A stretch of DNA of 64,000 nt from Histomonas meleagridis (taxonomy: Eukaryota; Parabasalia; Tritrichomonadida; Dientamoebidae): contig WSYJ01000001.1 of NCBI GenBank assembly GCA_020186115.1, positions 434,001-498,000 of the forward strand, in the 5' to 3' direction. Below are positions 9,781-62,885 of this stretch, in pieces. A program made the translations under genes and the position numbers. Within the stretch, counting starts at the first letter, position 1; each line of letters opens with the position of its first letter. Below the pieces are notes generated by a model. The model made no database searches and had not been told where the DNA came from. It worked only from the letters and a program-made list of their open reading frames with translations.

Positions 9781-9800
9781 ATATTAAAATTTTAAATGTT

Positions 9801-12045: not shown

Positions 12046-12164
12046 ATGATAAACCTACCAGTGTTCAACTGGGGAATTTATGCTTTTCATTATCCTTCAT
12101 TTTTTTTATATCACCGAATGATTTACCCACATTAATTAAGTCATATGACATAATTTGTAAACAT

Positions 12165-12460
12165 CTCTAATTCATTGGTCAGCGCAAACAATGTTCAATT
12201 CAATGTCAACAATTAATAACTCATATAATGAAATTACAAATATCTCTAATTCATTGGTCAGCGCAAACAATGTTCAATTCAATGTCAACAATTAACAACA
12301 CATATAATGAAATTGCAAACATCTCTAATTCATTGGTCAGCGCAAACAATGTTCAATTCAATGTCAACAATTAACAACACATATAATGAAATTGCAAACA
12401 TCTCTAATTCATTGGTCAGCGCAAACAATGTTCAATTCAATGTCAACGATTAACAACACA
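12165..12460. repeat. Minisatellite, 79-bp unit, about 3.75 copies
   Basis: Units start at 12165, 12244, 12323 and 12402, each beginning CTCTAATTCATTGGTCAGCG, with only a few substitutions. The unit is not a multiple of three and no frame stays open, so it is unlikely to be coding. It lies just 3' of the large Lys/Glu repeat gene. Confidence 0.95.
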
Positions 12461-27826: not shown

Positions 27827-29305
27827 ATGTTTTTTGCATTGCTTTCGCTAGCTTTCTCGGCCAGTGATCCATTGCTTCATCCAAAACGCGAGTTCCGTGG
27901 TGCATGGATCCAATGTGTTAATGGTAACTTAATGGGTATGACAACTGAACAAACACAAGCAAAATTAATCTCACAATTAGATAGTCTTCAAGAAGCTGGA
28001 ATCAATGCCATCATTTTCCAAGTGCGTGCAGAATGCGATGCATTATACAATTCTGAATATGAACCATGGAGTCGTTTTCTTACTGGAAAGCAAGGCGTAG
28101 CTCCAAACCCACTATGGGACCCACTTCAGTTCATGGTTGATGAATGCCACAAGCGTTGCATGGAACTTCATGCCTGGATTAATCCATATCGTGCACAAAC
28201 CGCCGGTACAAAAGAACTTGCAGAAAACCACCCAATCAATGTCAAACCAGAGCTTTTCCTTACTTATGCTGGTCAAGTTTATTTCGATCCTGGATATCCT
28301 GAATCTCGCCAACACATTCTTCAGATAGTTGAAGATATTGTTACTCGTTATGATATCGATGCCATCCATATGGATGATTACTTTTATCCATATCCAAGCA
28401 GTGGTGAAGAATTTGGCGATACAGCAAGTTTTGCTGCATACAGCCGTGGCTTTACCAACAAAGGAGATTGGCGTCGTGACAATGTCAATCTTCTTATCAA
28501 GGAGATGCATGAATTAGTACGTTCCCTTAAACCATGGGTCAAATTTGGCGTATCACCATTCGGTATATATCGTAACAAAGCCTCAGATCCAAACGGTAGT
28601 GACACCAGAGGACTTCAAAACTATGATGACTTATATGCCGATATCCTTTTATGGGTTAATGAAGGATGGGTTGATTATAACATTCCACAAGTTTATTGGC
28701 AAATCGGATATTCAGCCGCTGATTATGATGTTCTTGTTCGTTGGTGGGCTAAGTATTCATCAGAGCGTCCACTTTACATTGGCCAAGATGTTGTTCGCAC
28801 CATCCAATATAAAGATCCAGCCAAACCAGACCAAAACCAAATCGAAGCCAAGTACACACTCCAAAGGCAATTCGCCACGATTCAAGGCAGCTGCCAATGG
28901 TATGCTCAAGCTGTTGTCGAGAATCAAGGCGGCTATCGTGATGCGCTCATCAACACGTACCACAAGTACCCCGCACTGGTTCCAACTATGCCATTTATCT
29001 ATGACAAGGAACCAGGAAAAGTGACATCGTTAGCAACCGCCGTTGATGGTGACAACCACATCTTAGTTTGGAATGCTCCAGAAGCAGAAACAGAGATGGA
29101 TAAGGCTATAATGTATGTCATTTATAGGTTTGATAGCGAAGATAGTGTCGATTTGAATGATCCTGCTAACATTGTCGGAATTACAAGAGATACATATTAT
29201 ATTTTGCCTTACGTCGATGGCACAAGTAACTACATTTATGCTGTAACTGCTCTTAACCATTTACAAGCTGAATCAAAGGAAAAGACTATCAAAATTAGCT
29301 TATAA
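27827..29305 (+). CDS. Secreted glycosyl-hydrolase-like protein, GHL10 (DUF187) family
   Basis: The protein is 492 residues with a cleavable-looking signal peptide (MFFALLSLAFSA). The (beta/alpha)8 fold of GHL10 is recognisable: REFRGAWIQCV, a GINAIIFQVRAECDALY segment, HAWINPYRA, DIDAIHMDDYFYPYP (acidic residues at the strand end, likely catalytic), KFGVSPFGIYRN and DYNIPQVYWQIG. A fibronectin-III-like C-terminal domain follows (about residues 405-490). In bacteria these proteins are associated with envelope or glycan degradation. In this phagotrophic or mucosal protist it may digest bacterial or host glycans, which is inference. The family is mainly bacterial, so lateral transfer is plausible. 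Codon use is richer in C-ending codons than neighbouring HEAT genes, suggesting good expression. Confidence 0.88.
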   Translation: MFFALLSLAFSASDPLLHPKREFRGAWIQCVNGNLMGMTTEQTQAKLISQLDSLQEAGINAIIFQVRAECDALYNSEYEPWSRFLTGKQGVAPNPLWDPLQFMVDECHKRCMELHAWINPYRAQTAGTKELAENHPINVKPELFLTYAGQVYFDPGYPESRQHILQIVEDIVTRYDIDAIHMDDYFYPYPSSGEEFGDTASFAAYSRGFTNKGDWRRDNVNLLIKEMHELVRSLKPWVKFGVSPFGIYRNKASDPNGSDTRGLQNYDDLYADILLWVNEGWVDYNIPQVYWQIGYSAADYDVLVRWWAKYSSERPLYIGQDVVRTIQYKDPAKPDQNQIEAKYTLQRQFATIQGSCQWYAQAVVENQGGYRDALINTYHKYPALVPTMPFIYDKEPGKVTSLATAVDGDNHILVWNAPEAETEMDKAIMYVIYRFDSEDSVDLNDPANIVGITRDTYYILPYVDGTSNYIYAVTALNHLQAESKEKTIKISL

Positions 29306-36038: not shown

Positions 36039-39000
36039 TTATCTTATATTCATAGTAATTGCTACTCCTTGTAAAATCCAAAAACTTTTATGTTCTGTTG
36101 TTTCCAAATAAGCTGTCTGCACTAAGCCCACTCCCATTGCATCTCTTCTCATTTGTGTCAAGTAAATTGGTGTTTTCAGCATATTTTGAGTTCTGACCTT
36201 ATTAATTTCCATTGGCGTAACTTTTAACAAAGGTAATTCCGTAACAATTTCTTTTGGTTTTTGTTGGACTAAACATCTTTTTTCGATATCCCAACTTGCA
36301 CCTTCCAAATACATTCCACTTAAATAGCATCCAAGTGTAGGTTTTGTCAATACTTGTGATGAATTTTTATAAGATGAAACAGTTATCATTAAAGTCGCCT
36401 TATCTAGTGGCCAACCCTTAGCTCTGCAAGCAGTTTGTAATAATGCTGTTAAGTAAGCTTCAGGTACATGTAATCCAGATAGCCACATAACCTTAGGTTC
36501 ACCATTTAAATACCAATCTTCATATTGTTCTCTACGACGTTGGAAATGTATTAACCAATCAGACAAAGACTTTTCTGTTATCGGGGCGAGTTTTCTCCAC
36601 GACTCGGGTAACCGCCCCAAGTGTATTGAATTCATCAGCTCCTCCAAGTCATTTGACATTGAAACTTCACCCAAAAGTGCTCGTTGTAATTCAAAAAGTG
36701 AATTTGTGATACAATTGACTAGTTTATTCCAATGTTCCAATTCTTGAATTAAAACGATTTGTATTGGAGTAATATCATTACCAAAGGAAGAGCGAACTTC
36801 GTTTAAATTGAATGGAGGCTTTAGTTTAAGTTGAATTTCAGATACTATTGAAGATACCTGAGATTCTTTGCTAATTCTGTTTAATGTATTTATTGTATTA
36901 CTATTAATATTTAATATATTATTACACATTTCACGAGAAGTATCTTGGTAATAATTAATTTCAGCGTTTAAGTTCAATCCGAATACATCAGGAGAAGTAA
37001 TTATTGGTAAGTTATCAATATAATTAATATATTCATTTAATCCTTTAACTTTTGGTAAGTCATAAGACTTTTCATTATCCTTAAAGAAGTTAAACACTTG
37101 AAAATCATCGAATAAGAAGTCTCCCATATATTCATCCAAATAAGTCATTAAAATTCTTCTATCGAAATCATCAGTAACACGACCTCCATACATAGCCTCT
37201 CCAATTAAATAACGTAATGATCCCCAAGGGATTAAATTATCTTTATTATCATATGCCTTTGTTAAATATGTTGATAACAATTTAAATGAAATAGTAAAAT
37301 CAGACATATTAAAATCATATGAAATGTTCCAACCTAATTTTCCATATTTACGTCTTTCTTGGATAACTGCATGGAAGAAAGTTAATACATAAACTAAAGG
37401 TTGGAAAGCGAAATGTGGACATTCATTAAATTGTTCTTCAGTAATTGTTGAGAATAATTGTTTCATGTTTAATTGTAATCCGGATGGAGGCTCGATAACA
37501 ATTTTATGTGATCTTTGTAATAAGCCAACAGGGAATTTGTTTGTTGGATCAGATGTTAACCATAATCGAAAATCAGGATTAGGTCGAACAGTACATTTTT
37601 CGATTAATTTCTCTAATTCTTTAAGCCATGAAGTTAATAAATGACAATTTTGTAATATAACCCAATGCCCTCTATTCGCCCCTGTTTGTATTAAGTTCTT
37701 AGCTGGTTCTTCTTGATCTTGACCTAAAGCTATTGATTTAACTCTATTCGTTCGACCTTGAATACCTTGTACACCATTCTCATCACCTAAAAATCCAAGT
37801 TTATCAGCTAATTTATATACTTCATTAGCCGGATCTGAACCAGGTGAAAGTATAAATAGAATTGGCGTTTGTGGTGAAGATTGATCGAATAATGCTTGAT
37901 AATTAATTATCGGGAATTTAGAATAACTTTCACCCATATTTTCAATGATATAATTTCGTGCTGATAAAAATAATCGATCAGGTCGAAAACATCGCAAAAT
38001 ACACATCTTTGATAAGTCATCTAATGTTGTTTCATAATTTAATGGTAATTTTGTAGTTTCTGGTGTAGCTTCATTAAAGTATTCATGCCAAATTTCTTCA
38101 TTTTCAATTAAATCTTCTTTTAAGTTTTTGAAGTTTTCATCAATTGTTATTAACTTATTAATGTTTTCCCAACTTTGTTCTGGTAACCATTTCGGAAATG
38201 GATTTTGTTCATTACTTTTTTCTAATGATATATTCCCTTTAAGTATGAAATCTAATATTGTTGAATTAATTTTTCCTTCTTCTCTTTTGATACATAAAGT
38301 CATATGAAATGCATACATTAATTTATGACGTTCGAATAATCCCTTCAAAACATATTCAAAGACATCGTGCGTCAATACTGAAATAATGTTTTGAATTCGC
38401 TTTGATATTACAGGTGTAGGTGCAGCACGTTTTAATGAACTAATAAATACTTCACTAAATGAAGATAATGAATATTCATACATTGAGTTGATTAAATTTA
38501 AGTTATTCATACTAAAGAATAATATTGAACCACGTTTAGCAACAGGTAAAAATTCATTACATAAATTATCTAATTCAATTGTAGTCTTTTGTGCTGTATC
38601 AAGTTTAGATGTAATTGTTGTAGCTTCATTTTTAGTTTCTTCTAACGTTGCTAATAATTGATCATTATCAGTAATATAACCAGTAGATTCTGATAATAAT
38701 TTTAATAAAGTCTTTTGTAATGTTTGAAGTCTTCTTTTCATATCAGAAGTTTCTTTAACTAATGAATTCTTTTGTTCATGTAATTCTTTATGTTCATTAG
38801 AAATTGTTATATCTAATAATTGTTCTTGTAAACCTTTCTCTGTTACACAACAATTAATTAATGTAACTTTCGATGATATTTCAGGTGAATAATTCGGTGA
38901 TGAAAGTTTTGTAGTTAAAAATATTTTGAAGTTTTCATCATAATCTAATTCTTTATCATTAAATTTAATGAATTTTCTCGATCCTTGTGATATAATATTC

Positions 39001-42000
39001 TTTTCTAATAATGGTGTTAATATAGGATCTATAAATTCATCAATTCCTTCAAATAAGACTATTAATCCATATTGTATTGCATTTTCTAATATTCGTGAAA
39101 ATTCAGGATCTTGGAAATTAGTAATTTTTAATTGTTTCTCACCAATATGTTGTTTAATCCAATGTACAACTTGTAATTGAGGATCGATACATAATGGGAA
39201 TTTATTCGATCGTGTAATTAATAAACCATTTTGTATACTTAATTCATCCGCAGGTAAACCTTCACCTTTCCAACCAAAAATTTCAGCTTCATCTGATAAG
39301 AATAAACCTAAATTAAAGTTATTATTAATTGGGATATTTCTATCAATTAAATCTTTCTTTAAGATATCAAATAAAATCTTATTACGATATTCATGATTTA
39401 AAGGTCCTAAATAACTTAAAAAGATTGATGATAATAAACAATCACCAATTAAATAATTCAAAAGTTTTTGTAAATTCTCTTTATCTTCAGTCCAACGAAT
39501 TTTCTCAGAAGAAAATCCAGAAATTAATTTTTGTGCTGCTAATAAACGTTGTTCTAATTGATCTTTTTGACGTTTTAATTCTTCTTGTTCTTGTTGACCT
39601 TGTTTTAATTTAAGAGTAACTTTATTTTGTTCTTCTTGTAATTCTTGTAATTCCTTTTTAATTCGTATGAAATCATTTTGTGATTTCTTTTGTTCATTTT
39701 CCATTTTATCTACTAATTGTTCTTTAGGTTTAACATTTTTATCAATTTCATAATATGCATATATGTTTTGACACCATTCGAATATAATTCGAGCAGAATT
39801 TCCTGCTCTTTGGATTTCATTTGATCTAGATTCTAATGATTTAATATATTGTTGAATTCTTTTCATTTTACGATCATTAGTACATTTCTCTCGTACATTA
39901 AATTCTTTCATATCATTTAAAAATGATGGCTTCGCCATATATTTACGTGCATTTGACCAACTTTCTTCTCCTTCCGTTTCATTAAAGAATGCACATATTA
40001 ATTTACCAATTTCAGTACTAATCTCTGGTGGTGAAGCCATTGATTTAAACTTAGCATATTCCCCTAAATCGATTTTAGAAACTGCTTGTTTAGCTTTCTC
40101 ATGTATAGGTTTAGCTTCTTCTAATGCATTTTCTGCTGCTATTTTTGCAACTTTAATATGTTCTAAGTTTTCTTTAATTTCTTGTTCTTTAATTGAAGCT
40201 TCTTGCATTTTTTGTTCTGTTAATACTTTTCTTTCAGTTTGTTCTCTCATTAATTTATTATTTTCGAATTCTTTATATGTTAAATTCTTTTGTTGTATCT
40301 TAAATCTGGCATCTAATTCTTCAACTTCTTTTGAAGCTGATACAAGTCTCTTTAAACCATCAGATAATATTTGAAGTTGTTGTTCTATATATTGTTTTTT
40401 ATCTTTTAATAATTTAATAAAAGTAGAAATATAATCCAAAAAATTCGTAGGTGTAATATGTACATATCTTCTATAAATAGTCGAGAATTCAATTGAATAT
40501 TTAACACATTGTTGATGTGCAAATACCATATGATTAATTACTTGTTCGAAAATATCTTTTGGAATGATTTGATTTGAATTAACATTTGTCGTGTCGTTTT
40601 CTAATTGTTCTAAGAAATATTTTGATACTTCAAATAATGCTTCATTAGGCCATGGATCAAACCAATCAATGACAGTATTATTAACTAATCCTGGGAAATC
40701 TCGACATCTTCTTCGAAGATTATCACCAGAAGGAGAGAAACATAAAACAATATGTAAATTATCTCTACATCTATCTATGAATACTTTCCAACAATTTTCA
40801 GGTGTTTCTATTAAACCTTTTCGAATTACATCTTCTGATACATGTGGCATGATATCATTTTTATCTTCTTGTGTAAATAATCCTGGAATAATTCCATTAG
40901 TTAACATGTTATTAATTAATTCTAAAAATGTTTCAGAGATAATATGGTTATCTGAGAATAAAAACACAACTTGTTTACGTTCAATACCTACTAAATGATA
41001 AAGTTTCTTTAAATCATCTTTAAAATCATTTATATTATAAGTTCTAGTTAAAGTAATTTCAAATATTTCATATCCTACTGTATAAGCAGCTAATTTTGTT
41101 AATGATTTTTTACCACTACCTCCAATTCCTATTAATAAAGCATTACCACGTGGAGTTTTAATAATACGCAATATACGTGTTAAATGTTCAATAACATAAT
41201 CAAATAATACTATATTCGATTTCACTTTCTTAGATATTGAATAATCTTCAATTATTTCTACAAAATGTTGTTTCAGATTTTCATAACTAATTAAATCTTG
41301 ATATAAATATGGTCCATCACTACCACTTTCTACAATAAAATCACCAAATAAACTTGGGTTTTGTATAGCTTCATCTTTAACATTATTAAAATTATCATTA
41401 ATTAATGTTTCGATTTTATCGATTACAAATTTCCGATCATTTTCATTAATTAATCGATCATGAAATACTCTTAAACATTCATTTCTCCATAATTTTATAA
41501 ATTTACCTAAAGTATTAAATTTAGAAGGTGTAGATTTACATATACCTTCGAAAACTCTTGATAAATCTCTTAAGTTAAATAAATAATGGAACTTTGAAGG
41601 TGTTGGTGGTAATTTAGTAACAATATCATTAAAGAATATTAAAGTTGAATCAGTAATTTTTGGATAAATTTGTTGAATTTCATCCGAGAAATTCTTAATA
41701 TGATTCTTTAAAATAGTATTAAATATATGATGTAAAGATTCATCTGATGGTGGTACAATATGAAATACATTAAATAATGAAACAAATCGTGGATCTAATA
41801 AAGCTCGAGAACCTCCTGGTGGTGCCATTGCAGAAATATACGAAATTTTTTGTACTTGTTTCCAAGTTAAATCTCCTTTTCGATCATACATTCCATTTCG
41901 TTCGATTAAAAGCTTTAATAAAGCTATAGGTTGTTGTGTACCATATTTATCTACTGTTGGCATATTAATATCATCAATAAATAATATCATGTTTTTACCT

Positions 42001-45000
42001 CCTTGAGGTACTGATGTATCTTTTGTAGGATTATCTAATGATTCTTCAATAGAAGTTTGGACATCCATTGAAGTAGTACAATTAGAAAAGTTTAATGTTT
42101 TAGTTAAATAATCATTCGGATCAAAAGAACTTAAAAAGTTTTGTATTGTAGAAGTTTTTGCTGTACCACTTTTACCTATGAATAAAATTGGTTGATTTGA
42201 TTTATTAACAATTTTTTCTAATATATATTGATTACGTATAGTATCAATTGTTGGGATAATAATTTGATTAAATTGTATATTTAATGGGATTTCATAATCA
42301 TTAATTTTAATATTCCAAGGTATCCATTGTTGTTTTTGTATATTAAATTCATATTCATATAATGTAGTATTATCAATACCTGGTAATTGTCCAGCTTTAG
42401 CAAATTTTCCAGGTGTATCTATAATTACCCAATTTGATAATTTTTTAATAAATTGATCAAATTTTATCATAGATTCAGTAGTTAAAGTACCACCAAAAGA
42501 CCAAATAATACTAAATATAAATAATGATTCTAATATTTCTGTATCTTTAATTTCTTCTTCAGGCAATAAAGCATCTAAGAATGAACATAATTGTTTAACC
42601 ATTGATATAGAAGTTATAGGTATAATCGTTTCTAAAGGAGTTGAAGTTAAATTATCATTAACTTTACCATTAATAAAATTAACACAAGAATTAACATATC
42701 GTTCGAATAAACCTTTCAATATTGTGTTTTCAGGTCGATTCTTTTGTATTAACCATCTTTCATAATAAGGAACACAACCTAAATTTCGAGGATCCATATA
42801 AACCATACCACAACGTGATATAGTTGCAGGAGACGCATATTGTAAATCTCCGACTTCAAATAATAAAGCACAATGAGGTAATAATCTAATTCTTTCTGAA
42901 TTAGCTAATGTTAATAACTTATTATCATCCATAACAGAGTTCATATTTTCGACCCAAACAGCATCTACATCACCATCAAATACTATATAACGAGCTTCTT
43001 TCTTTTCAGTTTGTTGATTAATATCTTTAAATATTTTAGAGAATAAGCCCCATTTCCAATCTCTTGTAGTCGGATCTAATACACCATATAATTCGGATAC
43101 TGTATAAGCTTTAGGATTTAATGTGAATAATCGTGTTAAGATACCAATTCTTGTTTGTGCTTTAGCTAATACATCGATAATTACTGATTTACCACCACCT
43201 GTACCACCTACAACCATAGTTGTATGACGTGCATTCATAGTTTCATGTAATTGAAGTATTTTTTCCATTTGCGTAGGTACTTTTGAATAACCCATTTCAT
43301 TATAAATTTCTTCTATTTTTTCTGACAAAACATTTTTATGGATATTTTCTAATTCAATATCAGGGAATAAATCATTTAATAAGCCTAAAAATAATGGAGT
43401 ATCTTCATAAGTAAATTTGGGCATATTCATATCTCGAATAGCTGTCATCAAAACAACTTCTTCGGATAAATTAGGATTTAATCGTTTAAGTTCTCCTGCT
43501 CTAGCTAGAACAGATTTAATTGCACGTAAACCCCAATCATAATGATGTTGTTTCGATAATTGACCAGAAGCCATAGAATAAATAGTGATCATTTTCTTAG
43601 ATAATATATGTGTATTAGTTTCAAAACCTTCCGAAAATAACATAACTTCACATATCAAATCGGTATTAGGTACAACCATAACGACAGGTCGAAACATAGC
43701 CTTTAAGTTATCCGGCAATTCAGAACGTCCTGCATAACCAGGATTCATAGTAACAAAGATACCGAATCCAGGATTTAATGGGATTTTTCGACCATCAAAT
43801 ACAAATTGTCGTGCACCAGCTTTAAAAGCTGATTGAATAATACGTATATGACCAGAAATTACAGATAAAACTTCGGGTTCAATACGATTAAATTCATCAA
43901 AACATCCCCAACCACCAGTTTGAACTAAACCGGAAAAGATTCTAGCCATAGCTTTATGATCTAAACCTTCGCCACAATTAAAGACATTACATAATCGACA
44001 CATAGCTTTAGCTAAATCTTTTACAGTTTCAGTTTTACCTGTTCCTGCAGGTCCAGCAGGTGAACCACCAAAACCCATTGATAAAGCTTGAGTCAAAGTC
44101 ATAATACATCTATCAGTTAATGGAGTAATGACAAGTCTACCATTTAACCCCATATATTCATAACCACATTGAAATGAACCAGTACATTGACGTATTAATA
44201 CGTCATCTTGTGAATGATCCCAATAATATCTTAATTGACTTTCCCATTGGAATTCATGTGAATCTAAAATAGAATCACGAACAAAACCATCAACTAAATC
44301 ACGTTCATGTACATCGATAATGATTAAAGTATTAATTTTCTTCCGTGTTAATTTATCAAGATTTGATCTAATTAATTTTACAATATCATTAATTTGATTT
44401 ATCATTTTTGTTCTCATTTCTTTCATCGCTAATTTATTACCTGATCGAACTTGTCTAAATGATTCTTCTACTTCATAAGTCCACCAAATTTGTGATACCA
44501 TTAATACTACCATACCTATATATTGTTGAATCCATTCTGTTCGAGGCATTTTTACATATGATATTACTGCTTCTTTCATAATTTGATATAAAGTTTTTTG
44601 CATTTCATGTTCAACATTTAACATCCATTCTTCAACTGCACCTTCAGCTAATATATTATTCTTAAAATTAAATGATTCTTTTTCACATGATGTCATTCCA
44701 ATTACATTATAAGTATTACGTTGATTCTTAAAGATTAATGATTCACAATTTTCAAATAATTTTATCATATGTTGTTGAACTGATGAAGGATCTCCTGATC
44801 CTAAAATAGATAATAATTCATCATCTGATATAAAGAAGAATCTTGGGAATGCAATTCTTTTTGTTTCTAAATATTCGGATAAAGATCTTTGACATTTATC
44901 TAATCTAATTGCAAAATTTTGTAATGTATTTAACTTATCTGGCGTTTTAACAGCAGAAATAATTAAAGTGTTTTTACGTGTATCTTGCATTAATCTATTC

Positions 45001-48000
45001 CATATTAAATCAATATTAGCAAATTCATTAGCTTCTTCAGGTAATTGTTGTTTAATATCTTCTGATCCTATGAAAATGGATTCTAAATACATCCATTTTA
45101 ATTGTACTTGTAACCAAATATTTATTAAGTCACCAATTTTCGATAAAATAATTTCCCATTCATGTACAGATTTTTGGAAATATGTAACAAATCGTGATGA
45201 ACTTAATGATTGTAATTTCATTTTATTATCATCTAATGTCGTCAAAATATCTTCAATACCTGATAATATATAACCTCTTTCTTCATTAGAATAAGGATTT
45301 CGTTTATAAGGTATTACTGTAAATCTCATTTTATTCCATACATCTGATATTTCTTGAATACCTTTTTCAATAATTAATTCTTTTGTAGCAGTATTAGTAA
45401 CTTCATTAATGACATCAGCATATTGTAATAAATTCATCTTAAAGATATTAGCTAATGTAACTGCATTAGGTTGGAAATCAATTCCTGCGCCTGCTTTTAC
45501 CATCATTTCATTCCAATGTCGTTCACGTAATGCTTCATTCTTAAGATCTTGAAACAAAGGTAAACTTTCTTTAAAAGTCGAAATCTTTTTCTTAAGATAT
45601 TCATATGGAGGCAAACCTCTTAATTCATGTGGAAGTTTTCGTAAAGACATTTCAAATCCATCGATTCCATTAATTAACATATTAACATCTACTTCAGACC
45701 ATAACATTGAAGCCCATTCATTCATAGTCTTTTCTTGATTATCATATAATTGATAAATTTGTTGATAAGAATTTAATGATGTCTCAATAATTTGTAATTG
45801 AGGAAATGAAGTTAAAGGAATTCCAAATAATTTTTCTGCTATATGAAAATCATCTCTACGTTGACAATATTCTTTTAATTCTTTCCGATATTTTAATACT
45901 AAATCCAAACCTTTCTCCATTGGTGTATTAGGATTTCCTGGTCCTTCTTTTTCGAATTTCTCCAAAAATTGTTGAACTTCTTTTTTAAATTCTTGAACTT
46001 CATTAATTGTATATTCTTTAAATTGTTCTTTAGTATGTTGTAATGAGATATCAAGTTTAGAACTTTCATCCATAATATTATTCCATCTTTCTTTAAATGT
46101 AGGAATTAATTTTGCAGTTCCTTCAGGTTGTGTTAAACCAAAAATTTTTAATGTACGTGAACTTTCATTAATTTCATACATATCTCTTTCCATTTGTACT
46201 GATGAATCTTTAGCAGTATTAATAACTTGTAATACAAATTCAATATCTTCTCTTTCTTTAATTTCATGTTTCATATTTGTTTGATATTTATTTAATTCAT
46301 TGTCCATATTTTTAACATTTTCAAGTAATTGTTCTGATAATGCATTACCATAAGTTACTAAATATTGATTACATTCTGATTTTAATGAATCAATTATAGG
46401 TTTATAATCAATTTTAGTAAACATTATATTAATATTTGTTGGTAATTCTGATATTTCTTCATATAAATTCTTATAATATGAAAATTTAGAATCATATTCA
46501 GCAATTGAAGGATTTTGTTGCTTAAAGTTTTCAACTATAGCTTTCTTATCATCTAACCAAATATTTTTATAAAAGTCGAAAATTTTTGATTTCTCTTCAA
46601 TTTCTTTGATTAAATTTTCGATTTTATTTTGTAAATCATTTGATAAAGATTTAACTTTTTCACATTCAATTACATCATTACCAAAGTTTAATAATTCTTC
46701 TTCATTTTCTTCATTATTGTTATTATTTTGTTGTAAAGGTATAATACATGTACCTTTTTTCCATTTAATACAATTATTCGAAGTTGTTAAAATTAATTTT
46801 ATTAATTTATTAAATATTTTATATATTATTTCAAATGTTGGATTATAAGATATATTCGGTGGAGTTAATCTTGCAACGATTTGAAATTGAGGAATTTCCA
46901 TAAGTAATTGTAATTGTATTAATGATAATAAAGTAGAACGAGTCATAGCATTTAATAATCTTTTTTCCCATAATAAATAATATTCGGATAAATTCTTTTG
47001 TATTAAATTTTGTTGCTTTGTTGGTATACTTAAACAATTCCCTTCAATAATACGTAATTGTGGTGGTATATCTAAATATTGTGAAAGGATTTCTTTTTGT
47101 TTTTGTTTATGATAATTTATTATATAATCCGAAAAATCAAATATCGAATCGATGTTTGAAGGTATTTTTGATGGTATTGTAATACAATCACCTATAAACT
47201 TTATCGATTTATTAATTTTTTGGACATTTGATAAAACAGAATTAGCAGCACTCTTAAATTGATGAATTGCATGTTGACATCTTGTTAAGAAATCATTTAC
47301 ACCTAATGAATTCCAATTTAAATATGTAGTACCATCCGAAAATACTTCTTCGACACTTCTCATACAACCAATTAAAATTGGAATTTCATCGGAATTTAAT
47401 GAGTTTAATGTATTATTCCAATCATTTAATAAAGATTCAAGTGATCTTTGAAGTTTCATATAATGCGGATATTGTAATAATACATTAATAACATCTGATG
47501 ATAATGTATAACCCATTCGTTCAAGATGTTTACCTTCATTAATTAATTGTTGTAAATCAGGATCAAAATTTACGGAATGTTGATTAATCGTTACGCCATA
47601 TAATGTAATTTTAATTGATTTTAAAATAGGTTTCTCTAATGCATTATTCGATATTGATTCTGTTTTAGAACTCCATTCTTGAAATAATTGCATATTTTGT
47701 TTATCAATTAATTTCGCAACTTCTGCATAATGTTGTTTAACACTTTCGAAATTTGGGTTTTCTGTAATTTGTGGATGTGTTCTTAATCGAAGCATTGGCT
47801 TTTTCATCCTAATAAATAATGATCGAGCCCAAGAGATACGTCCAGTAACTGGTGGATGATGTGATAATATTGGTGGGTTTAATCTTTGTTCTTTATAAAT
47901 TTTTTCTATCTCAGTAACTTCTTCGGAATATTTAGCTAATACATCGGAATATTTCCCATCCATTTGATCTTTCATTTCACCGGCAAGTTGAATCTTCTTA

Positions 48001-49838
48001 AATCTATCTAATAAATCTAATCCTGCTTCACTACTTCTTAAATCTTTAAATGAAGTATTAATTAATCCACTTAATTGTTCTTGTATCTTTAATGCAGCAC
48101 CTAAAAATCGATTAAACACTGTTTCCCAAGGAGCTCTAAATCGTTTATCAAAGATATCAAATGGTAATGGTGATAATGGTGTAATTAAATCATCAACTTG
48201 TGCTCTAATTTCATCAATTACATGCGGATTATTTGTAACTGATTTAAGTTCAGGTCCTAATATTAAATAAAGTTCATTCAGTTTCTCTGCAATTTGTTTA
48301 AGTTCTCGACATCGATCTGCTATATATAATGGCCGCTCAAATAAACGCGACTGCTCAAAATCCCATCGTGGAATATGTGTACTTTTCTCAATTAATAATC
48401 GAACTTCATTAAATCGATCGTGCCAACGAGTTAATACATTATAAGCTGTTTCAGTTTGTTGAATAGCTTCTTCTAAATTACCACGTAATATTTCAGTGGA
48501 TATTTCTTGTTGAACTCGATCACTTAATTGATGTGATATCCTTTCAATTAATGGCGCCATTAAACTTTCGGTGTTATAATAATTTGATGTTATCCATATT
48601 AATCGTAAATTATCCATAATAGATGATAAAGAATTATAAATTGTTTGTAATGGACATGTTTGAAGATTTCGAAAATGTCGTTCAAGTAATGACAAAAAGT
48701 CAACATTACTTTTAGCTTCTTTAACATATCGATCTAAATCTTCAAATTGAGCATTAAAATTAGTTAAACTTTGTGAATTAATTAGATCAAGAACTTTCAC
48801 ATATTCGGGTAATTTCGGTGATTTAAGTTGTTCTAATAAAGATGATGAAACAATATATCGTGAACGCCATAATTCAACTTCAGCTAATGGACCAGATGAT
48901 TCATGTCCTTGTTTAGTTAACTTATCAATGGTCCTTGAAATTAATGATGTGAATTGATCTAAGCCTTGTTCAAGTTTTGATACATATTCTTCATTCTTGG
49001 CAAGTTCTTCTGGATCCCCTGGAATTGTTTCCGGAAATGTAATGTCATGAACAGTGCGAATTTTTCGGACTGAATGATTAATTTCATCGACAAATTTTTG
49101 AAATACTGATAAAAAATCATCATCAATTCCAGACGATAATGGATCTGAATCAGGGCGCTCTGGAGGTGAATCACAATGCTCTGAAAAAATCGGTGTATAA
49201 ACATTGTTCAAACAATCTGATAATCCTTCAAGACAATTACCTGGTATAACTTGAAATGAAAAACAACCACCGATTTTGTTGCGATCACGCGGAATAGGTT
49301 TGCGTGGTCCAAGTAAAGAATAAAAAGCCATTACACGTGAATTTTGTGGAATAGATGGAATATTGTCAAAATAAAAAGCTAGATCAATAACATGTGTAAT
49401 AACTTCTTTCTTCTCTTCCTCTTCAGTTTTTTCCTCATTTTTTTGTTCTTCTTCCTCATTTATTTGTGAAGCTTGATCATTGTTTTCATTTTTTTCTGGA
49501 GTTTCTTCTGTGGTTTCTTCAGTTGTTTCTTCTTTTGCATTGTTTTGTTCTGTTGAATATTCTTGAGGATCTTCTTGTATAATTGATTGCACATCTTCTT
49601 CCTCCTCTTCTTCTTCTTGTTGATCTTCTTCAACTTCCATTTCTTTGATTTTATCTATTGCAACAAAAACAACTGCAGTGTTATTTGTCTTACCATTGAG
49701 GAAATCAGCAAGTTCATATTTTGTTAGCACTTCAACAAGTTGTTCATTAGGAACGCCATTAAGGTCAAGACCAAGAACCAGTTGATTCTTTATCCATTCT
49801 AATCTTTCATCATTGAAAAGTGCTTCCTGTTTCATCAT
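36039..49838 (-). CDS. Axonemal dynein heavy chain
   Basis: The protein is 4599 residues in one uninterrupted 13.8-kb frame. After an N-terminal ALFNDERLEWI segment and an acidic insertion (about 72-145) come the tail domains, the linker, and six AAA modules. P-loops: AAA1 GPAGTGKTE near 1930 (followed by FNCGEGLDHKAM), AAA2 GGTGGGKS near 2215, AAA3 GKSGTAKT near 2555 and AAA4 GIGGSGKK near 2905. The stalk coiled coil and microtubule-binding domain are around 3150-3450. The C-terminal domain ends WILQGVAITMNIR. The protein powers flagellar beating. The length and the phrase IRDMNMPKFTYEDTPLFLGLLNDLFP recall the axonemal class near DNAH10, but outer- or inner-arm assignment needs a tree. It is divergent from CFAP45, with AACGTT 18 nt upstream of the ATG. 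Confidence 0.97.
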   Translation of the reverse strand: MMKQEALFNDERLEWIKNQLVLGLDLNGVPNEQLVEVLTKYELADFLNGKTNNTAVVFVAIDKIKEMEVEEDQQEEEEEEEDVQSIIQEDPQEYSTEQNNAKEETTEETTEETPEKNENNDQASQINEEEEQKNEEKTEEEEKKEVITHVIDLAFYFDNIPSIPQNSRVMAFYSLLGPRKPIPRDRNKIGGCFSFQVIPGNCLEGLSDCLNNVYTPIFSEHCDSPPERPDSDPLSSGIDDDFLSVFQKFVDEINHSVRKIRTVHDITFPETIPGDPEELAKNEEYVSKLEQGLDQFTSLISRTIDKLTKQGHESSGPLAEVELWRSRYIVSSSLLEQLKSPKLPEYVKVLDLINSQSLTNFNAQFEDLDRYVKEAKSNVDFLSLLERHFRNLQTCPLQTIYNSLSSIMDNLRLIWITSNYYNTESLMAPLIERISHQLSDRVQQEISTEILRGNLEEAIQQTETAYNVLTRWHDRFNEVRLLIEKSTHIPRWDFEQSRLFERPLYIADRCRELKQIAEKLNELYLILGPELKSVTNNPHVIDEIRAQVDDLITPLSPLPFDIFDKRFRAPWETVFNRFLGAALKIQEQLSGLINTSFKDLRSSEAGLDLLDRFKKIQLAGEMKDQMDGKYSDVLAKYSEEVTEIEKIYKEQRLNPPILSHHPPVTGRISWARSLFIRMKKPMLRLRTHPQITENPNFESVKQHYAEVAKLIDKQNMQLFQEWSSKTESISNNALEKPILKSIKITLYGVTINQHSVNFDPDLQQLINEGKHLERMGYTLSSDVINVLLQYPHYMKLQRSLESLLNDWNNTLNSLNSDEIPILIGCMRSVEEVFSDGTTYLNWNSLGVNDFLTRCQHAIHQFKSAANSVLSNVQKINKSIKFIGDCITIPSKIPSNIDSIFDFSDYIINYHKQKQKEILSQYLDIPPQLRIIEGNCLSIPTKQQNLIQKNLSEYYLLWEKRLLNAMTRSTLLSLIQLQLLMEIPQFQIVARLTPPNISYNPTFEIIYKIFNKLIKLILTTSNNCIKWKKGTCIIPLQQNNNNNEENEEELLNFGNDVIECEKVKSLSNDLQNKIENLIKEIEEKSKIFDFYKNIWLDDKKAIVENFKQQNPSIAEYDSKFSYYKNLYEEISELPTNINIMFTKIDYKPIIDSLKSECNQYLVTYGNALSEQLLENVKNMDNELNKYQTNMKHEIKEREDIEFVLQVINTAKDSSVQMERDMYEINESSRTLKIFGLTQPEGTAKLIPTFKERWNNIMDESSKLDISLQHTKEQFKEYTINEVQEFKKEVQQFLEKFEKEGPGNPNTPMEKGLDLVLKYRKELKEYCQRRDDFHIAEKLFGIPLTSFPQLQIIETSLNSYQQIYQLYDNQEKTMNEWASMLWSEVDVNMLINGIDGFEMSLRKLPHELRGLPPYEYLKKKISTFKESLPLFQDLKNEALRERHWNEMMVKAGAGIDFQPNAVTLANIFKMNLLQYADVINEVTNTATKELIIEKGIQEISDVWNKMRFTVIPYKRNPYSNEERGYILSGIEDILTTLDDNKMKLQSLSSSRFVTYFQKSVHEWEIILSKIGDLINIWLQVQLKWMYLESIFIGSEDIKQQLPEEANEFANIDLIWNRLMQDTRKNTLIISAVKTPDKLNTLQNFAIRLDKCQRSLSEYLETKRIAFPRFFFISDDELLSILGSGDPSSVQQHMIKLFENCESLIFKNQRNTYNVIGMTSCEKESFNFKNNILAEGAVEEWMLNVEHEMQKTLYQIMKEAVISYVKMPRTEWIQQYIGMVVLMVSQIWWTYEVEESFRQVRSGNKLAMKEMRTKMINQINDIVKLIRSNLDKLTRKKINTLIIIDVHERDLVDGFVRDSILDSHEFQWESQLRYYWDHSQDDVLIRQCTGSFQCGYEYMGLNGRLVITPLTDRCIMTLTQALSMGFGGSPAGPAGTGKTETVKDLAKAMCRLCNVFNCGEGLDHKAMARIFSGLVQTGGWGCFDEFNRIEPEVLSVISGHIRIIQSAFKAGARQFVFDGRKIPLNPGFGIFVTMNPGYAGRSELPDNLKAMFRPVVMVVPNTDLICEVMLFSEGFETNTHILSKKMITIYSMASGQLSKQHHYDWGLRAIKSVLARAGELKRLNPNLSEEVVLMTAIRDMNMPKFTYEDTPLFLGLLNDLFPDIELENIHKNVLSEKIEEIYNEMGYSKVPTQMEKILQLHETMNARHTTMVVGGTGGGKSVIIDVLAKAQTRIGILTRLFTLNPKAYTVSELYGVLDPTTRDWKWGLFSKIFKDINQQTEKKEARYIVFDGDVDAVWVENMNSVMDDNKLLTLANSERIRLLPHCALLFEVGDLQYASPATISRCGMVYMDPRNLGCVPYYERWLIQKNRPENTILKGLFERYVNSCVNFINGKVNDNLTSTPLETIIPITSISMVKQLCSFLDALLPEEEIKDTEILESLFIFSIIWSFGGTLTTESMIKFDQFIKKLSNWVIIDTPGKFAKAGQLPGIDNTTLYEYEFNIQKQQWIPWNIKINDYEIPLNIQFNQIIIPTIDTIRNQYILEKIVNKSNQPILFIGKSGTAKTSTIQNFLSSFDPNDYLTKTLNFSNCTTSMDVQTSIEESLDNPTKDTSVPQGGKNMILFIDDINMPTVDKYGTQQPIALLKLLIERNGMYDRKGDLTWKQVQKISYISAMAPPGGSRALLDPRFVSLFNVFHIVPPSDESLHHIFNTILKNHIKNFSDEIQQIYPKITDSTLIFFNDIVTKLPPTPSKFHYLFNLRDLSRVFEGICKSTPSKFNTLGKFIKLWRNECLRVFHDRLINENDRKFVIDKIETLINDNFNNVKDEAIQNPSLFGDFIVESGSDGPYLYQDLISYENLKQHFVEIIEDYSISKKVKSNIVLFDYVIEHLTRILRIIKTPRGNALLIGIGGSGKKSLTKLAAYTVGYEIFEITLTRTYNINDFKDDLKKLYHLVGIERKQVVFLFSDNHIISETFLELINNMLTNGIIPGLFTQEDKNDIMPHVSEDVIRKGLIETPENCWKVFIDRCRDNLHIVLCFSPSGDNLRRRCRDFPGLVNNTVIDWFDPWPNEALFEVSKYFLEQLENDTTNVNSNQIIPKDIFEQVINHMVFAHQQCVKYSIEFSTIYRRYVHITPTNFLDYISTFIKLLKDKKQYIEQQLQILSDGLKRLVSASKEVEELDARFKIQQKNLTYKEFENNKLMREQTERKVLTEQKMQEASIKEQEIKENLEHIKVAKIAAENALEEAKPIHEKAKQAVSKIDLGEYAKFKSMASPPEISTEIGKLICAFFNETEGEESWSNARKYMAKPSFLNDMKEFNVREKCTNDRKMKRIQQYIKSLESRSNEIQRAGNSARIIFEWCQNIYAYYEIDKNVKPKEQLVDKMENEQKKSQNDFIRIKKELQELQEEQNKVTLKLKQGQQEQEELKRQKDQLEQRLLAAQKLISGFSSEKIRWTEDKENLQKLLNYLIGDCLLSSIFLSYLGPLNHEYRNKILFDILKKDLIDRNIPINNNFNLGLFLSDEAEIFGWKGEGLPADELSIQNGLLITRSNKFPLCIDPQLQVVHWIKQHIGEKQLKITNFQDPEFSRILENAIQYGLIVLFEGIDEFIDPILTPLLEKNIISQGSRKFIKFNDKELDYDENFKIFLTTKLSSPNYSPEISSKVTLINCCVTEKGLQEQLLDITISNEHKELHEQKNSLVKETSDMKRRLQTLQKTLLKLLSESTGYITDNDQLLATLEETKNEATTITSKLDTAQKTTIELDNLCNEFLPVAKRGSILFFSMNNLNLINSMYEYSLSSFSEVFISSLKRAAPTPVISKRIQNIISVLTHDVFEYVLKGLFERHKLMYAFHMTLCIKREEGKINSTILDFILKGNISLEKSNEQNPFPKWLPEQSWENINKLITIDENFKNLKEDLIENEEIWHEYFNEATPETTKLPLNYETTLDDLSKMCILRCFRPDRLFLSARNYIIENMGESYSKFPIINYQALFDQSSPQTPILFILSPGSDPANEVYKLADKLGFLGDENGVQGIQGRTNRVKSIALGQDQEEPAKNLIQTGANRGHWVILQNCHLLTSWLKELEKLIEKCTVRPNPDFRLWLTSDPTNKFPVGLLQRSHKIVIEPPSGLQLNMKQLFSTITEEQFNECPHFAFQPLVYVLTFFHAVIQERRKYGKLGWNISYDFNMSDFTISFKLLSTYLTKAYDNKDNLIPWGSLRYLIGEAMYGGRVTDDFDRRILMTYLDEYMGDFLFDDFQVFNFFKDNEKSYDLPKVKGLNEYINYIDNLPIITSPDVFGLNLNAEINYYQDTSREMCNNILNINSNTINTLNRISKESQVSSIVSEIQLKLKPPFNLNEVRSSFGNDITPIQIVLIQELEHWNKLVNCITNSLFELQRALLGEVSMSNDLEELMNSIHLGRLPESWRKLAPITEKSLSDWLIHFQRRREQYEDWYLNGEPKVMWLSGLHVPEAYLTALLQTACRAKGWPLDKATLMITVSSYKNSSQVLTKPTLGCYLSGMYLEGASWDIEKRCLVQQKPKEIVTELPLLKVTPMEINKVRTQNMLKTPIYLTQMRRDAMGVGLVQTAYLETTEHKSFWILQGVAITMNIR

Positions 49839-59099: not shown

Positions 59100-59363
59100 A
59101 TGAGCAAATTAAATAACTTTTTGAAAGTAAACAAAACATATGTAAAGTTACAAATGGAGAAATTCGTTCTGTTGGACAATTTGGAAATTATTCTTCGTAT
59201 ATTTTATGGTTCATTTTTATCACATTTAAAAGCAAACAAAACATATGTAAAGTTACAAATGGAGAAATTCGTTCTGTTGTACAATTTGGAAATTATTCTT
59301 CGTACATTTTATGGTTCATTTTTATCACATTTAAAAACAAACAAAACAAATGTAAAGTTATAA
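59100..59363 (+). CDS. 87-residue repeat ORF directly after enolase (doubtful gene)
   Basis: An ATG four bases after the enolase stop opens an 87-codon frame. It is made of a 35-residue unit repeated about 2.3 times: VNKTYVKLQMEKFVLL followed by NLEIILRIFYGSFLSHLK, then nearly identical copies, ending in TAA. The 105-bp DNA unit is a multiple of three, and differences between copies include conservative changes. It resembles no family I know. It may simply be an expanded 3' UTR that happens to be open, or a small hydrophobic/basic repeat peptide. Confidence 0.3.
   Translation: MSKLNNFLKVNKTYVKLQMEKFVLLDNLEIILRIFYGSFLSHLKANKTYVKLQMEKFVLLYNLEIILRTFYGSFLSHLKTNKTNVKL
59129..59362. repeat. 105-bp tandem repeat in the enolase 3' flank
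   Basis: Units begin at 59129, 59234 and 59339 (AAACAAAACATATG, last copy AAACAAAACAAATG). Copies 1 and 2 differ at only a few bases, so the duplication is recent. The unit length of 105 keeps the reading frame. Confidence 0.95.
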
Positions 59364-59856
59364 TTTTTGGTGGCAAAGAGGTCAATTATAATCAAATTCA
59401 GTGAATAAATTTCCATTTAGTAATAATAAAATTGTTCTAATATTTTTTAAGTTCGAAGATATATTTCATATAAATTGTTAACAATAAGATACTGAAATAT
59501 GAATTAATTATTTTTCGGTTGATATATAGGTAGAAAAAAAACAGTCTTATGAAATTTTTTGATTTTGATATTATTTATAGAAATAAAATGGAATGATCAT
59601 TCATATAATCCGGAGCCATTTTACATTGGCAATAAAAATTAGTAAACAAATTGTTCGTAGAATCATATTATATTTAATTCACATATAAAATTATATTGAA
59701 TAATAAGATGTTAATATAGCTCTATATTGTTTATACATCTAAGCATATTATAAAAAAATCGAAAATATTGCCTTTGAAGAGGCTCTTTGGTGAGCGTTTA
59801 TTAATTTACAGTGTACTTTTTAAATATTGTATGCAACATTTCAGAAAATAAATTGG
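59364..59856. other. Intergenic region upstream of the DUF3447 gene
   Basis: AT-rich 493-bp spacer. An AGCGTTTATTAATTT element lies near 59795 and a GTATGC...TTTCAG segment of 16 nt (59829-59844) is close to the start codon. No gene is evident. Confidence 0.4.
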
Positions 59857-60924
59857 ATGGGAAATTCTAGTAGCCAAGAAAATACTATTAACAAAACCAA
59901 AGAAGAATTATCACGTTGTGAATACATGGAAACAATACAGAAACTAGAAGAAATCATTTTCAATTTAAATAAAGATAATTTTACTCAAACAATTACATCA
60001 ATTACATATCTTATTCATGATAATTTTTCAATTTACACTAAACTAACTCTTTGCCGACTCATATATTTTGCGTTTCTATCGAAATTACAAGATTATCAAC
60101 TTTATTTAAGATTTATAAAAGAATTTGATGAAGCAACAAACTACAAAATATTTAAAAGATTTTTACATTATCTTCTTCAATTAAATTCACAAGAATCAAA
60201 TTTTCTTCTAGAAAAAATGATCAAATTAAATATAATTTCATCAAATTATGTTATAAACATTGAAACTTTTTATTTCGCACATTACATGTCTAATAAAATG
60301 ATAAATTACCTCAAAGGAGCATATCGTATTCCATTTAAGAAATATTTTATTGAAAACTATGAAGAACTTTCAAAAAATGATTGGGAACTTCATAAGAAAT
60401 TAATTAAAGAAGGACATAATCCGAATGAAATCGCGAAAATAATTCGAAATGATGAAATAGAAAAACTCCAAGAAATATCATCACAAACAAATTTTGATTT
60501 TAATCAAACAATTGAACCATCACTTTATGAAAGATGTTCTTTTATTAATCAATATAATGTATCATTAATTGATTATACAGCCTTTTTTTCATCAGCAAAA
60601 TGTTTTAAATATTTACTTATGAATAATACAAAAGTAACAAATACAGGAAAATATGCAATTGCAGGTGGAAATGAAGAAATTATTCATCTATGTGAACAAA
60701 ATCATTCATCTTTTGAAGATGCATATGAAACAGCAATTCAATTTCATCGAAATGATATCTTTCATTATTTATATGAGAATAAAATTATTGAATTTTCTTC
60801 TAAAAGAATAAGTGATTTTATATTTTTTTCTGATACAGAACCTATAAATTTTGAATTATTTAACTTTTTATATGAACAAAATGAAATAGATATAAATATA
60901 AAAAATGATTATATATTTCATTAA
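59857..60924 (+). CDS. DUF3447/ankyrin protein, N-terminal exon, possible myristoylation
   Basis: The frame starts at ATG 59857 (the only in-frame ATG near the start; the open frame reaches ten codons further but from a TTG). It gives 355 residues: MGNSSSQ is a classic N-myristoylation context (Gly2, Ser6). Helical DUF3447-type repeats follow: YRIPFKKYFIENYEELSKNDWELHKKLIKEGHNPNEIAKIIRNDE, then FINQYNVSLIDYTAFFSSAKCFKYLL. It ends NEIDINIKN plus an AT-rich read-through of five codons into a spacer. It is the intact counterpart of the pseudogene at 9801-11133, on the opposite strand about 50 kb away. The gene probably continues into the ankyrin array at 60990-62885. No function is known for the family. 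Confidence 0.75.
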   Translation: MGNSSSQENTINKTKEELSRCEYMETIQKLEEIIFNLNKDNFTQTITSITYLIHDNFSIYTKLTLCRLIYFAFLSKLQDYQLYLRFIKEFDEATNYKIFKRFLHYLLQLNSQESNFLLEKMIKLNIISSNYVINIETFYFAHYMSNKMINYLKGAYRIPFKKYFIENYEELSKNDWELHKKLIKEGHNPNEIAKIIRNDEIEKLQEISSQTNFDFNQTIEPSLYERCSFINQYNVSLIDYTAFFSSAKCFKYLLMNNTKVTNTGKYAIAGGNEEIIHLCEQNHSSFEDAYETAIQFHRNDIFHYLYENKIIEFSSKRISDFIFFSDTEPINFELFNFLYEQNEIDINIKNDYIFH

Positions 60925-60989
60925 AAGTTTAATATATTTTTTCGATATTTTAAAATAATATTTGAAAATTATTAAAAACATTTAAAACT

Positions 60990-62885
60990 CCATTAATTTC
61001 AGCAGCTGAAAAAGGGCGTATAGAAATTGTCAAATTTCTTCTTGAAAAAAATGGTATTGATATTGCATATCAAAGAATATTTTAATCTTATTTCGGGTTT
61101 CTTTGGATAATTTCAAATTTATTAATAAAATATAATAATTATATAAAATTCAAACAGCACTTGTTTATGCTTCTAAAATAGGACACACCGAAATAGTTAA
61201 ATTACTTCTTGAACAAGAAAATGTTGATATTAAAAAAATTTCTTTATGTTATTTCTAATTTATTAAAATAATTTGATATTTTATTATAATATTTGGAAAT
61301 TGTTAAAGTTATTTGGAGGAGCACTGACATGCGCATCACGCAAAAATTATATAAAAATAGTTAAATTACTTCTTAAACAAAAAGGAATTGATATTAATGC
61401 TAAAGGTGTTTATTTTTTTTCATATGATATATATTTTATTTATTTAATGTTTCGAAATAATATTTGGAATTTTTTTAAATTATTTGAAACTGCACTTATT
61501 TTAGCATCTCAAAATGGTCATACAGAAATAGTTAAATTACTTCTTAAACAAAAAGGTATTGATATTAATGCTTATGGTCTTTATTTGTGTTATTTTGGGT
61601 TTATTTTAATAATTTTATATTTCAAAATAATATTTGGTAATTATTTAAATTATTTTGGACAGCACTCTTAGCTTCTAGTTATTATAATAGAATAGAAATA
61701 GTTAAATTACTTCTTGAACAAAATGGAATCAATATTAATGCTAAAAATTTAAATATATTATAAATAATAATTTTGGATTTCAATATAATATTTGGAAATT
61801 ATTTAAATTTTCTAAAACAGCACTTATGTATGCATCTGAAAATGGTAATATGGAAATAGTTAAATTACTTCTTGAACAAGAAGAAATTGATATCAATGCT
61901 AAAGATATTTATATATTTTATTTAAAATTTTTTGGAAATTTTTGATGAATTAATATAATTTTTGGAAATCATTCGAATAATTTGCAACAGTACTTATGAT
62001 AGCAACACATGTAAAAAGGTCTACAGAAATTGTAAAATTACTTCTTAAACAAAAAGGAATTGATATCAATGCTAAAAATATTTGTTCAATTTTTTAAATA
62101 TTTATATAATTTATTTAATTTTTTTATATTTTATTTGGAAACTAATTAAATTATTTGAAACAGCACTTATTTGTGCTTCTTCATATGAAAATTTGGAAAT
62201 ACTTCAATTACTTCTTGAACAAGAAGGAATTGATATTAATGCGAAAGATATTTATTTGCTTTATTTAATGGCATATTAATACAATTTTTGGAAATTATTC
62301 ATAATATTTAGAAATGCTCTTATGAAAGCATCTTGGAGTGAAAACACAGAAATAGTTCAATTGCTTCTTAAACAAAAAGGTATTGATATCAATGCCAAAG
62401 ATATTCATATGATTTATTTAAAATTGTTTTCAATAATTTTATGTTTAAATATAATATTTGGAAATTATAAAAACTATTTTTTACAGCAATAATACTTTCA
62501 GTATTTGAGAAAAATATAAATACTCTTAAGGTGCTGCTTGAACAAGAAGGAATTGATATAAATGCTAAAGATATTCATTCATATTATTGAAGATTAGTTT
62601 TGATAGTATTATATTACAAAATAAAATTTGGAATCTTTCATTATTAATTAGAACAGCGCTTATGATTGCATCTGAGTATAATCAAATAGATATAATAAAA
62701 TTACTTCTTGGACAAGAAAGAATTGAGATTAATGCAAAAAATATTTATATGTTTTATTTATAGTTTATATTAATAATTTTGGATTTCAAAATAATATTTG
62801 ATAATTATTTGAATTATTTGAAACAGCACTTATGATTGCAAATGGAAAAGGTTATGATAAAATTGTTGATTTACTTTCGAAATAA
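60990..62885 (+). repeat. Interrupted ankyrin array: twelve ankyrin units separated by about 80-nt AT-rich spacers
   Basis: Twelve units follow, for example TPLISAAEKGRIEIVKFLLEK, TALVYASKIGHTEIVKLLLEQ, TALILASQNGHTEIVKLLLKQ and TALICASSYENLEILQLLLEQ. The last is TALMIANGKGYDKIVDLLSK followed by a stop. Unit period is 153-173 nt, usually about 170. All twelve are open from T-A-L to D-I-N-A-K-D in the same internal phase. The spacers contain stops or change phase, so no single frame runs through. Spacers start GATATTTATTT (or AATATTTAT) and end with a block like ATATTTGGAAATTATTTAAA. Canonical donors are nearly absent, and the 3' AG is seen in most but not all. Joining adjacent units at the same point keeps the frame because every unit is equal in length and phase. 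Confidence 0.85.

Follow-up and report, generated by a model that had tools for sequence, protein, structure and literature searches.

The window, a 64,000-nucleotide stretch of DNA from Histomonas meleagridis, a parasite of poultry, contains a gene at positions 59857 to 62885 (+) that consists of a DUF3447 part followed by 12 ankyrin units, each of which has an AT-rich spacer of 66 to 84 nt upstream. Pfam matched the first part to DUF3447 (PF11929, E = 1.4e-8) and found Ank families in a related array (L045), as expected of an ankyrin repeat protein with DUF3447. The DUF3447 stretch covers 59827 to 60924, and its reading frame passes into spacer 1, where it ends at a stop at 60922 to 60924. 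Rfam gave no matches in the window. The parts of this gene, and a second array of the same kind, are as follows.

59857 to 60903, +, putative first exon, DUF3447 protein to the last ankyrin-like motif (…DINIK); ORF of 365 aa, Pfam PF11929
60904 to 60986, +, spacer 1, 83 nt, putative intron (from sequence) between the DUF3447 exon and unit 1
60987 to 61073, +, ankyrin unit 1 (core; the codon directly upstream is also coding)
61074 to 61153, +, spacer 2, 80 nt, stops in three frames
61154 to 61240, +, ankyrin unit 2
61241 to 61317, +, spacer 3, 77 nt, stops in three frames
61318 to 61404, +, ankyrin unit 3
61405 to 61488, +, spacer 4, 84 nt
61489 to 61575, +, ankyrin unit 4
61576 to 61658, +, spacer 5, 83 nt
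61659 to 61745, +, ankyrin unit 5
61746 to 61816, +, spacer 6, 71 nt
61817 to 61903, +, ankyrin unit 6
61904 to 61986, +, spacer 7, 83 nt, stops in three frames
61987 to 62076, +, ankyrin unit 7, 30 codons (an additional codon that keeps the frame)
62077 to 62159, +, spacer 8, 83 nt
62160 to 62246, +, ankyrin unit 8
62247 to 62312, +, spacer 9, 66 nt, stops in three frames
62313 to 62399, +, ankyrin unit 9
62400 to 62482, +, spacer 10, 83 nt with unit 10 counted from its T-A codons (80 nt per the unit model)
62483 to 62569, +, ankyrin unit 10
62570 to 62652, +, spacer 11, 83 nt
62653 to 62739, +, ankyrin unit 11
62740 to 62822, +, spacer 12, 83 nt, stops in three frames
62823 to 62885, +, terminal unit 12, short, with TAA (62883 to 62885) in the ankyrin frame
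8984 to 9920, -, second array of the same kind, 6 units and 5 spacers of 83 nt

The 12 units span 60987 to 62885, and none of them has an internal stop. Between the 29-codon cores, the inter-unit spacers measure 80, 77, 84, 83, 71, 83, 83, 66, 80, 83, and 83 nt, with the second value of 80 becoming 83 if the start of unit 10 is set at T-A (62483). Of these 11 spacers, nine have a length of 2 mod 3 and five contain stops in every frame. The initial annotation had described intact units in one phase, AT-rich spacers of variable phase, several with stops, and a lack of canonical splice sites, and each of these observations held. None of the 16 window spacers (11 here and 5 on the minus strand) permits a frame-restoring GT-AG removal that keeps the last spacer codon. 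The array that it outlined is likewise real, with the gene start refined to 59857 and the last codon of each "spacer" moved to the coding side. The stretch of the second array (8984 to 11133, minus strand) has its DUF3447 part in two frames (10435 to 11133 and 9801 to 10223), so this copy looks broken.

Elsewhere in the window, there is a low-complexity ORF of 1,747 aa with many short tandem repeats of period 63 to 294 nt (12530 to 17773, -), one uninterrupted open frame of 4,599 aa (36039 to 49838, -), and two near-perfect tandem repeats (12155 to 12460, 79 nt, 3.9 copies; 59120 to 59360, 105 nt, 2.3 copies). A GHL10 family protein at 27827 to 29305 (+), near Clostridioides Cwp19 (PDB 5oq2, E = 1.5e-90), is unusual for a eukaryote and possibly reflects acquisition of a bacterial gene.

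The spacers form a genome-wide family

We searched 43,276,120 bases in 121 contigs and found DNA matches to the window array in at least 173 places. Allowing up to 3 mismatches, the 30-nt spacer core AATAATATTTGGAAATTATTTAAATTATTT is present at 2,247 + 2,266 = 4,513 sites, compared to 0 for the reversed pattern, and the array period of 170 or 153 nt recurs across the genome, so that the array is beyond chance. We read 19 cores that had no near exact neighbor among the listed places; all 19 have an ankyrin unit directly 3', and in 16 an ankyrin end was seen upstream at the expected distance.

We then assembled 372 junctions of 40 to 120 nt between units, deduplicated by position, from 61 sources; loci and sources were picked by similarity, not at random, and a few of the junctions belong to conventional arrays. 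Their lengths are 83 nt (258), 66 nt (62), 86 nt (9), 69 nt (7), 63 nt (6), and rarer values, almost always 2 or 0 mod 3. The length of 83 nt is retained even in strongly diverged spacers (15 of 21 at 20 to 24 edits and 7 of 15 at 25 to 29). Such a fixed length is unusual for introns and counts against reading the spacers in this way.

The strongest motif in 42 diverged 83-nt spacers is TTTGG, with its two G's kept in 36 and 32 of them, followed in conservation by a 5' RAT-RTTTAT and a 3' ATTATTT. Among 340 distinct spacers, 287, from most length classes, have TTTGG or a variant (TTTGA, TTTAG, or TTCGG) 26 nt from the spacer end, and 31 lack a TTTGG-type motif near the end. The boundary consensus that the initial annotation proposed to derive by aligning spacers does exist at the family level, as a 5' RAT-RTTTAT and a 3' TTTGGAA...ATTATTT. 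A conserved RNA structure was considered and rejected: none of the top 30 column pairs in 235 spacers showed complementary covariation, leaving no covarying stem of the euglenid or introner type at the ends, and the folds of two consensus spacers were weak and AT-only (-5 to -6 kcal/mol, computed with no control fold).

AT richness, many copies, and set lengths would also suit spacers that are excised from DNA in an expressed copy of the genome, as in ciliates. We regard this explanation as extremely unlikely, given that the assembly, made from cultured cells, retains the spacers; we know of no DNA excision of this type in parabasalids.

A loose first look gave 2,131 candidate DUF3447 copies in the genome, and 10 of the 114 that were scored have stops. 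Only one of the protein matches to the DUF3447 part is a named H. meleagridis protein. One DUF3447 match seems to lie in an open frame of 23,029 aa; the sequence read nearby consists of N, so this frame is probably an artifact. Our literature search of open-licence PMC papers found none on these spacers.

Units are kept as protein code and spacers are not

To guard against a circular test, we located units by means of a DNA model that works without an open reading frame; the model was trained on open units. The non-overlapping sources gave 450 unit matches, comprising 337 without length change, 6 with indels, and 107 partial matches that were left out. The expected number of stops was derived from the units' own substitution spectrum and scored on their actual codons. 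A frame-0 stop was found in only 1 of 328 distinct ungapped units, and single changes that make a stop in frame 0 numbered 1, compared to 44.1 expected. In the two other frames, the observed and expected counts were 129 and 110 and 168 and 158, respectively. When overlapping sources were included, stops were present in 1 of 344 units, with 1 stop-making change compared to 63.2 expected. Units remain equally clean along the array, with stops in 0 of 110 (units 1 to 3), 0 of 124 (units 4 to 6), and 1 of 123 (unit 7 and later), and 5 of the 6 unit indels are multiples of three.

In contrast, the 83-nt spacers had 119, 93, and 82 stops in the three frames, compared to 98, 114, and 89 expected, and the 66-nt spacers had 18, 29, and 8, compared to 20, 15, and 15. 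The only spacer figure clearly below expectation is the last of these (8 compared to 15, offset 2), which is not the unit frame. Since units are almost free of stops and spacers are not, the units, up to the last of the array, appear to be translated, and the spacers do not. These counts show that the units are kept as protein code and that the spacers lack such selection in any frame, which is the arrangement of coding exons flanking a noncoding insert that an intron of any kind would give. The 66-nt spacers are in frame, and 43 of 62 are open in frame 0, so this class might be partly translated; yet in Histomonas stops are not avoided in that frame.

The same counts bear on whether these are decaying arrays of a formerly continuous or intron-bearing family that has lost expression. 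Spacers do gather changes, and some N-terminal parts are broken (the 10 of 114 scored copies and the second window array). Decay is nonetheless contradicted, and we consider it very unlikely, by the deficit of stops in units, late ones included, by indels that are mostly multiples of three, and by the restriction of fast change to surface codons, as described below.

Hypervariable codons place the spacer borders

Hypervariability within the unit is seen at codons 5 and 8, which we take to be surface positions of the ankyrin repeat. Counted once per array and codon, they contain stops in 0 of 209 (34.2 expected) and 0 of 208 (42.8 expected) cases, respectively. The last codon of the spacer (codon -1) behaves similarly. 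It encodes K (67), E (52), N (39), R (38), Q (34), Y (30), W (29), and other residues, with stops in 0 of 340, or 0 of 206 when counted once per array and codon, compared to 30.4 expected with independent bases. In pairs with spacers less than 5% diverged (57 pairs, which are not independent), the difference per nucleotide was 0.36 for the hypervariable codons and 0.46 for codon -1, compared to 0.028 for the spacer core and 0.043 for structural nonsynonymous sites. Because codon -1 is hypervariable and never a stop, like the ankyrin surface codons, it is exonic. The exon therefore begins no later than codon -1, and the constant ACAG, which holds the only constant AG, sits inside the exon. The junction of DINAKD directly to TALI that the initial annotation had offered for a peptide search is thus off, as the exon includes one or more hypervariable codons ahead of TAL.

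Farther out, stops appear upstream of the unit at codons -3 (9 of 129) and -4 (13 of 120) and downstream at codon +3 (8 of 93), which puts the borders within a few nucleotides, after GAT(ATT) and before (TTT)NNN, and makes the exon about 33 codons long. We infer the exact borders with an uncertainty of a few nucleotides on each side, and no known acceptor fits the 3' border placed in this way. The spacerless NVMFE linker in a protein of a relative (P0011) is suggestive of a junction at D-I-L-F-x, but the stops at codon -3 in Histomonas count against an exonic TTA.

In translational skipping, the ribosome would bypass, or shift frame at, each spacer. One -1 shift per spacer is possible in 202 of 249 spacers of the 83-nt class, and spacer lengths that are nearly always 2 or 0 mod 3 would suit such a route. 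Only 12 of the 26 83-nt spacers with at least 20 mismatches allow the shift, however, and stop-making changes occur in spacers at the expected frequency in all frames, on which ground we rejected translation of the spacers by frameshifting or read-through. Translational bypassing features a matching take-off and landing codon, and inspection by eye found none at the inferred borders. Twelve events in a row would also be costly for each protein. We therefore consider skipping quite unlikely.

Ordinary splice signals are absent from the spacers

The genome contains spliceosome components, namely, Prp8 (PF10596, encoded by an open frame of 2,333 aa) and U2, which has two genes that carry GTAGTA. 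Searches for U1 and U12 gave no matches, and neither did their controls. Sites of the form GTATGT…CTAACACAG number 4 in the genome, compared to 0 for the control, while GTATGT…CTAACNNAG has 8 sites compared to 28, and the Trichomonas vaginalis 3' motif ACTAACACACAG has 3 compared to 2. Machinery for ordinary introns is thus present, and its signals are absent from the spacers: 4 of 338 spacers, compared to 14 after shuffling, permit a GT-AG removal that restores the frame and retains codon -1, in-frame AT-AC removal is possible in 18 of 338, compared to 27 after shuffling, and the parabasalid branch site CTAAC occurs in 0 of 338.

Ordinary GT-AG introns at shifted positions might still be proposed, on the strength of this machinery, the four GTATGT…CTAACACAG sites, a GT close to the 5' end in most spacers of the 83-nt class, and the ACAG that follows 292 of 338 spacers. 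However, removal from GT to the AG of ACAG would keep the frame in only 43 of those 292 and would delete the hypervariable codon and the ankyrin T. Together with the frame and branch site counts, this contradicts ordinary GT-AG introns, which we hold to be highly improbable.

Gene ends, joined units, and a relative

In five arrays (L004, L007, L025, L028, and L056), the terminal unit continues in frame into the tail KIQHHKCDDIIKLKDSQG. A GIEYD-type cap is found at the terminal units of four spacer arrays (L019, L036, L037, and L045) and one spacerless gene (L032), and in L045 it leads on into a UBR zinc finger (E = 7e-9). Several other terminal units stop soon past the core or enter spacer sequence, so not every array is complete.

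These ends help in weighing the second of the two explanations between which the initial annotation had chosen none, silent cassettes, in which the units would serve as gene-conversion donors for an expressed ankyrin gene and the spacers as homology or boundaries. Such a store of diversity would fit the hypervariable codons of the binding surface and the great number of near-identical units, and recombinant arrays do exist, as in L065, where a DUF3447 coding sequence breaks off midway and is joined to the 3' half of a spacer with an ankyrin unit. Yet every array lies behind its own DUF3447 exon, which is mostly open, and arrays end in frame with their own C-terminal tail or cap. In addition, the matches scored (150 of 9,095 candidates) included no spacerless array of the same units; those over two joined units were 43 to 58% identical, compared to up to 94% for spaced units. 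We consider cassettes unlikely. Two protein searches for joined-unit proteins of the window family found none among the best 120 of 5,499 and 2,561 matches, a point against intron removal.

The DUF3447 part had 25 protein matches, mostly from short metagenomic contigs, and 9 of the 20 that we read end directly at the second codon beyond the motif (…DI, DV, GI, or ND followed by a stop). By eye, P0009 and P0014 extend into sequence matching the 83- and 86-nt spacers, and in P0139, P0146, P0196, and P0209, metagenomic proteins of a relative, spacers of the 66-nt type are read through in frame. Spacer position, lengths, and core are thus present in a second species, with the reservation that these ORFs were chosen by gene finders and so are biased to open copies. 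Searches of genome-contig and viral-contig collections found no relatives.

Discussion

The repeats are kept as code, the inserts are not, and the usual signals are absent, so the spacers look like thousands of unannotated, unusual introns. The best reading of the data is that introns with borders other than GT-AG are removed at the RNA level from multi-exon genes, and we give this a probability of roughly 0.7. We infer splicing here from sequence rather than from observed junctions. Of the two options in the initial annotation, noncanonical introns are the better supported, by selection on the units and not on the spacers, by terminal units that continue in frame into shared C-terminal tails, and by the misfit to GT-AG; cassettes, like translational skipping, are less likely than RNA-level intron removal.

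Under RNA-level removal, the window array would be the 3' part of one multi-exon gene, in which ankyrin exons of about 99 nt come after a DUF3447 exon, each made up of the 29 codons of the core, two codons ahead of or around it, and two behind it. Between them would lie AT-rich introns, about 71 nt long in the 83-nt spacer class and about 54 nt long in the 66-nt class, that have neither GT-AG borders nor a CTAAC branch site. What is conserved in them is the 5' RAT-RTTTAT, the TTTGG-type motif at a fixed distance from the 3' end, and ATTATTT directly before the hypervariable exonic codon, and they could be removed by a relaxed spliceosome or another enzyme.

Several known systems share parts of this pattern. 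According to excerpts of PMC12316389, T. vaginalis, a parabasalid with Prp8 and U2, has short, AT-rich spliceosomal introns, of which type A exceeds 50 nt, and a conserved motif lies at a fixed distance from the 3' end, as here. The same excerpts describe GT/AG borders, a branch site fused to the 3' end, and mostly one intron per gene; unlike these introns, the Histomonas spacers lack GT-AG and CTAAC and occur many to a gene. The noncanonical introns and introners of Amoebophrya, as presented in part of PMC7789003, are also numerous, without GT-AG, and repeated within one genome, but they have inverted repeats and direct repeats at their borders and are spread over many genes, whereas the Histomonas spacers have no covarying stem and all 19 cores read precede ankyrin units. 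Nonconventional introns of euglenids, in the portion of PMC4770533 consulted, share noncanonical borders, an unexplained removal mechanism, and a 5' purine (here R, the putative first base); their pairing of positions +4 to +6 with -8 to -6 (CAG/CTG) is not seen in the Histomonas spacers. The window gene resembles the parabasalid DUF3447/ankyrin family in combining DUF3447 with ankyrin repeats, and it differs from spacerless arrays of the same genome, which have 34 codons per repeat and only 15-nt linkers of 5 codons (D-x-x-G-x).

More tentatively, and at somewhat less than even odds, Histomonas and its relative may possess a distinct class of AT-only introns of nearly fixed length (about 54 or 71 nt) that are neither GT-AG nor AT-AC, have no U2 branch site, and are recognized by a TTTGG motif set at a constant distance from the 3' border. 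If so, this class would separate the exons of a hypervariable ankyrin repertoire, would exceed the annotated introns about eightfold (4,513 cores compared to 573), and would allow single repeats to be shuffled as phase-matched exons, with removal requiring either an enzyme of its own or a second mode of recognition by the spliceosome.

The published annotation, as given in excerpts of PMC8529796, used AUGUSTUS trained on a transcriptome and reports 573 introns in the virulent strain, with at most one per gene. If the spacers are removed as introns, the real number would be many times above 573, and an entire gene family would be misannotated as truncated proteins. A parabasalid would then remove introns that lack GT-AG and its own branch site, offering a natural test of drift in spliceosomal recognition or of a second removal route. 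The family would also be a present-day example of phase-matched repeat exons, each with fast-changing surface residues.
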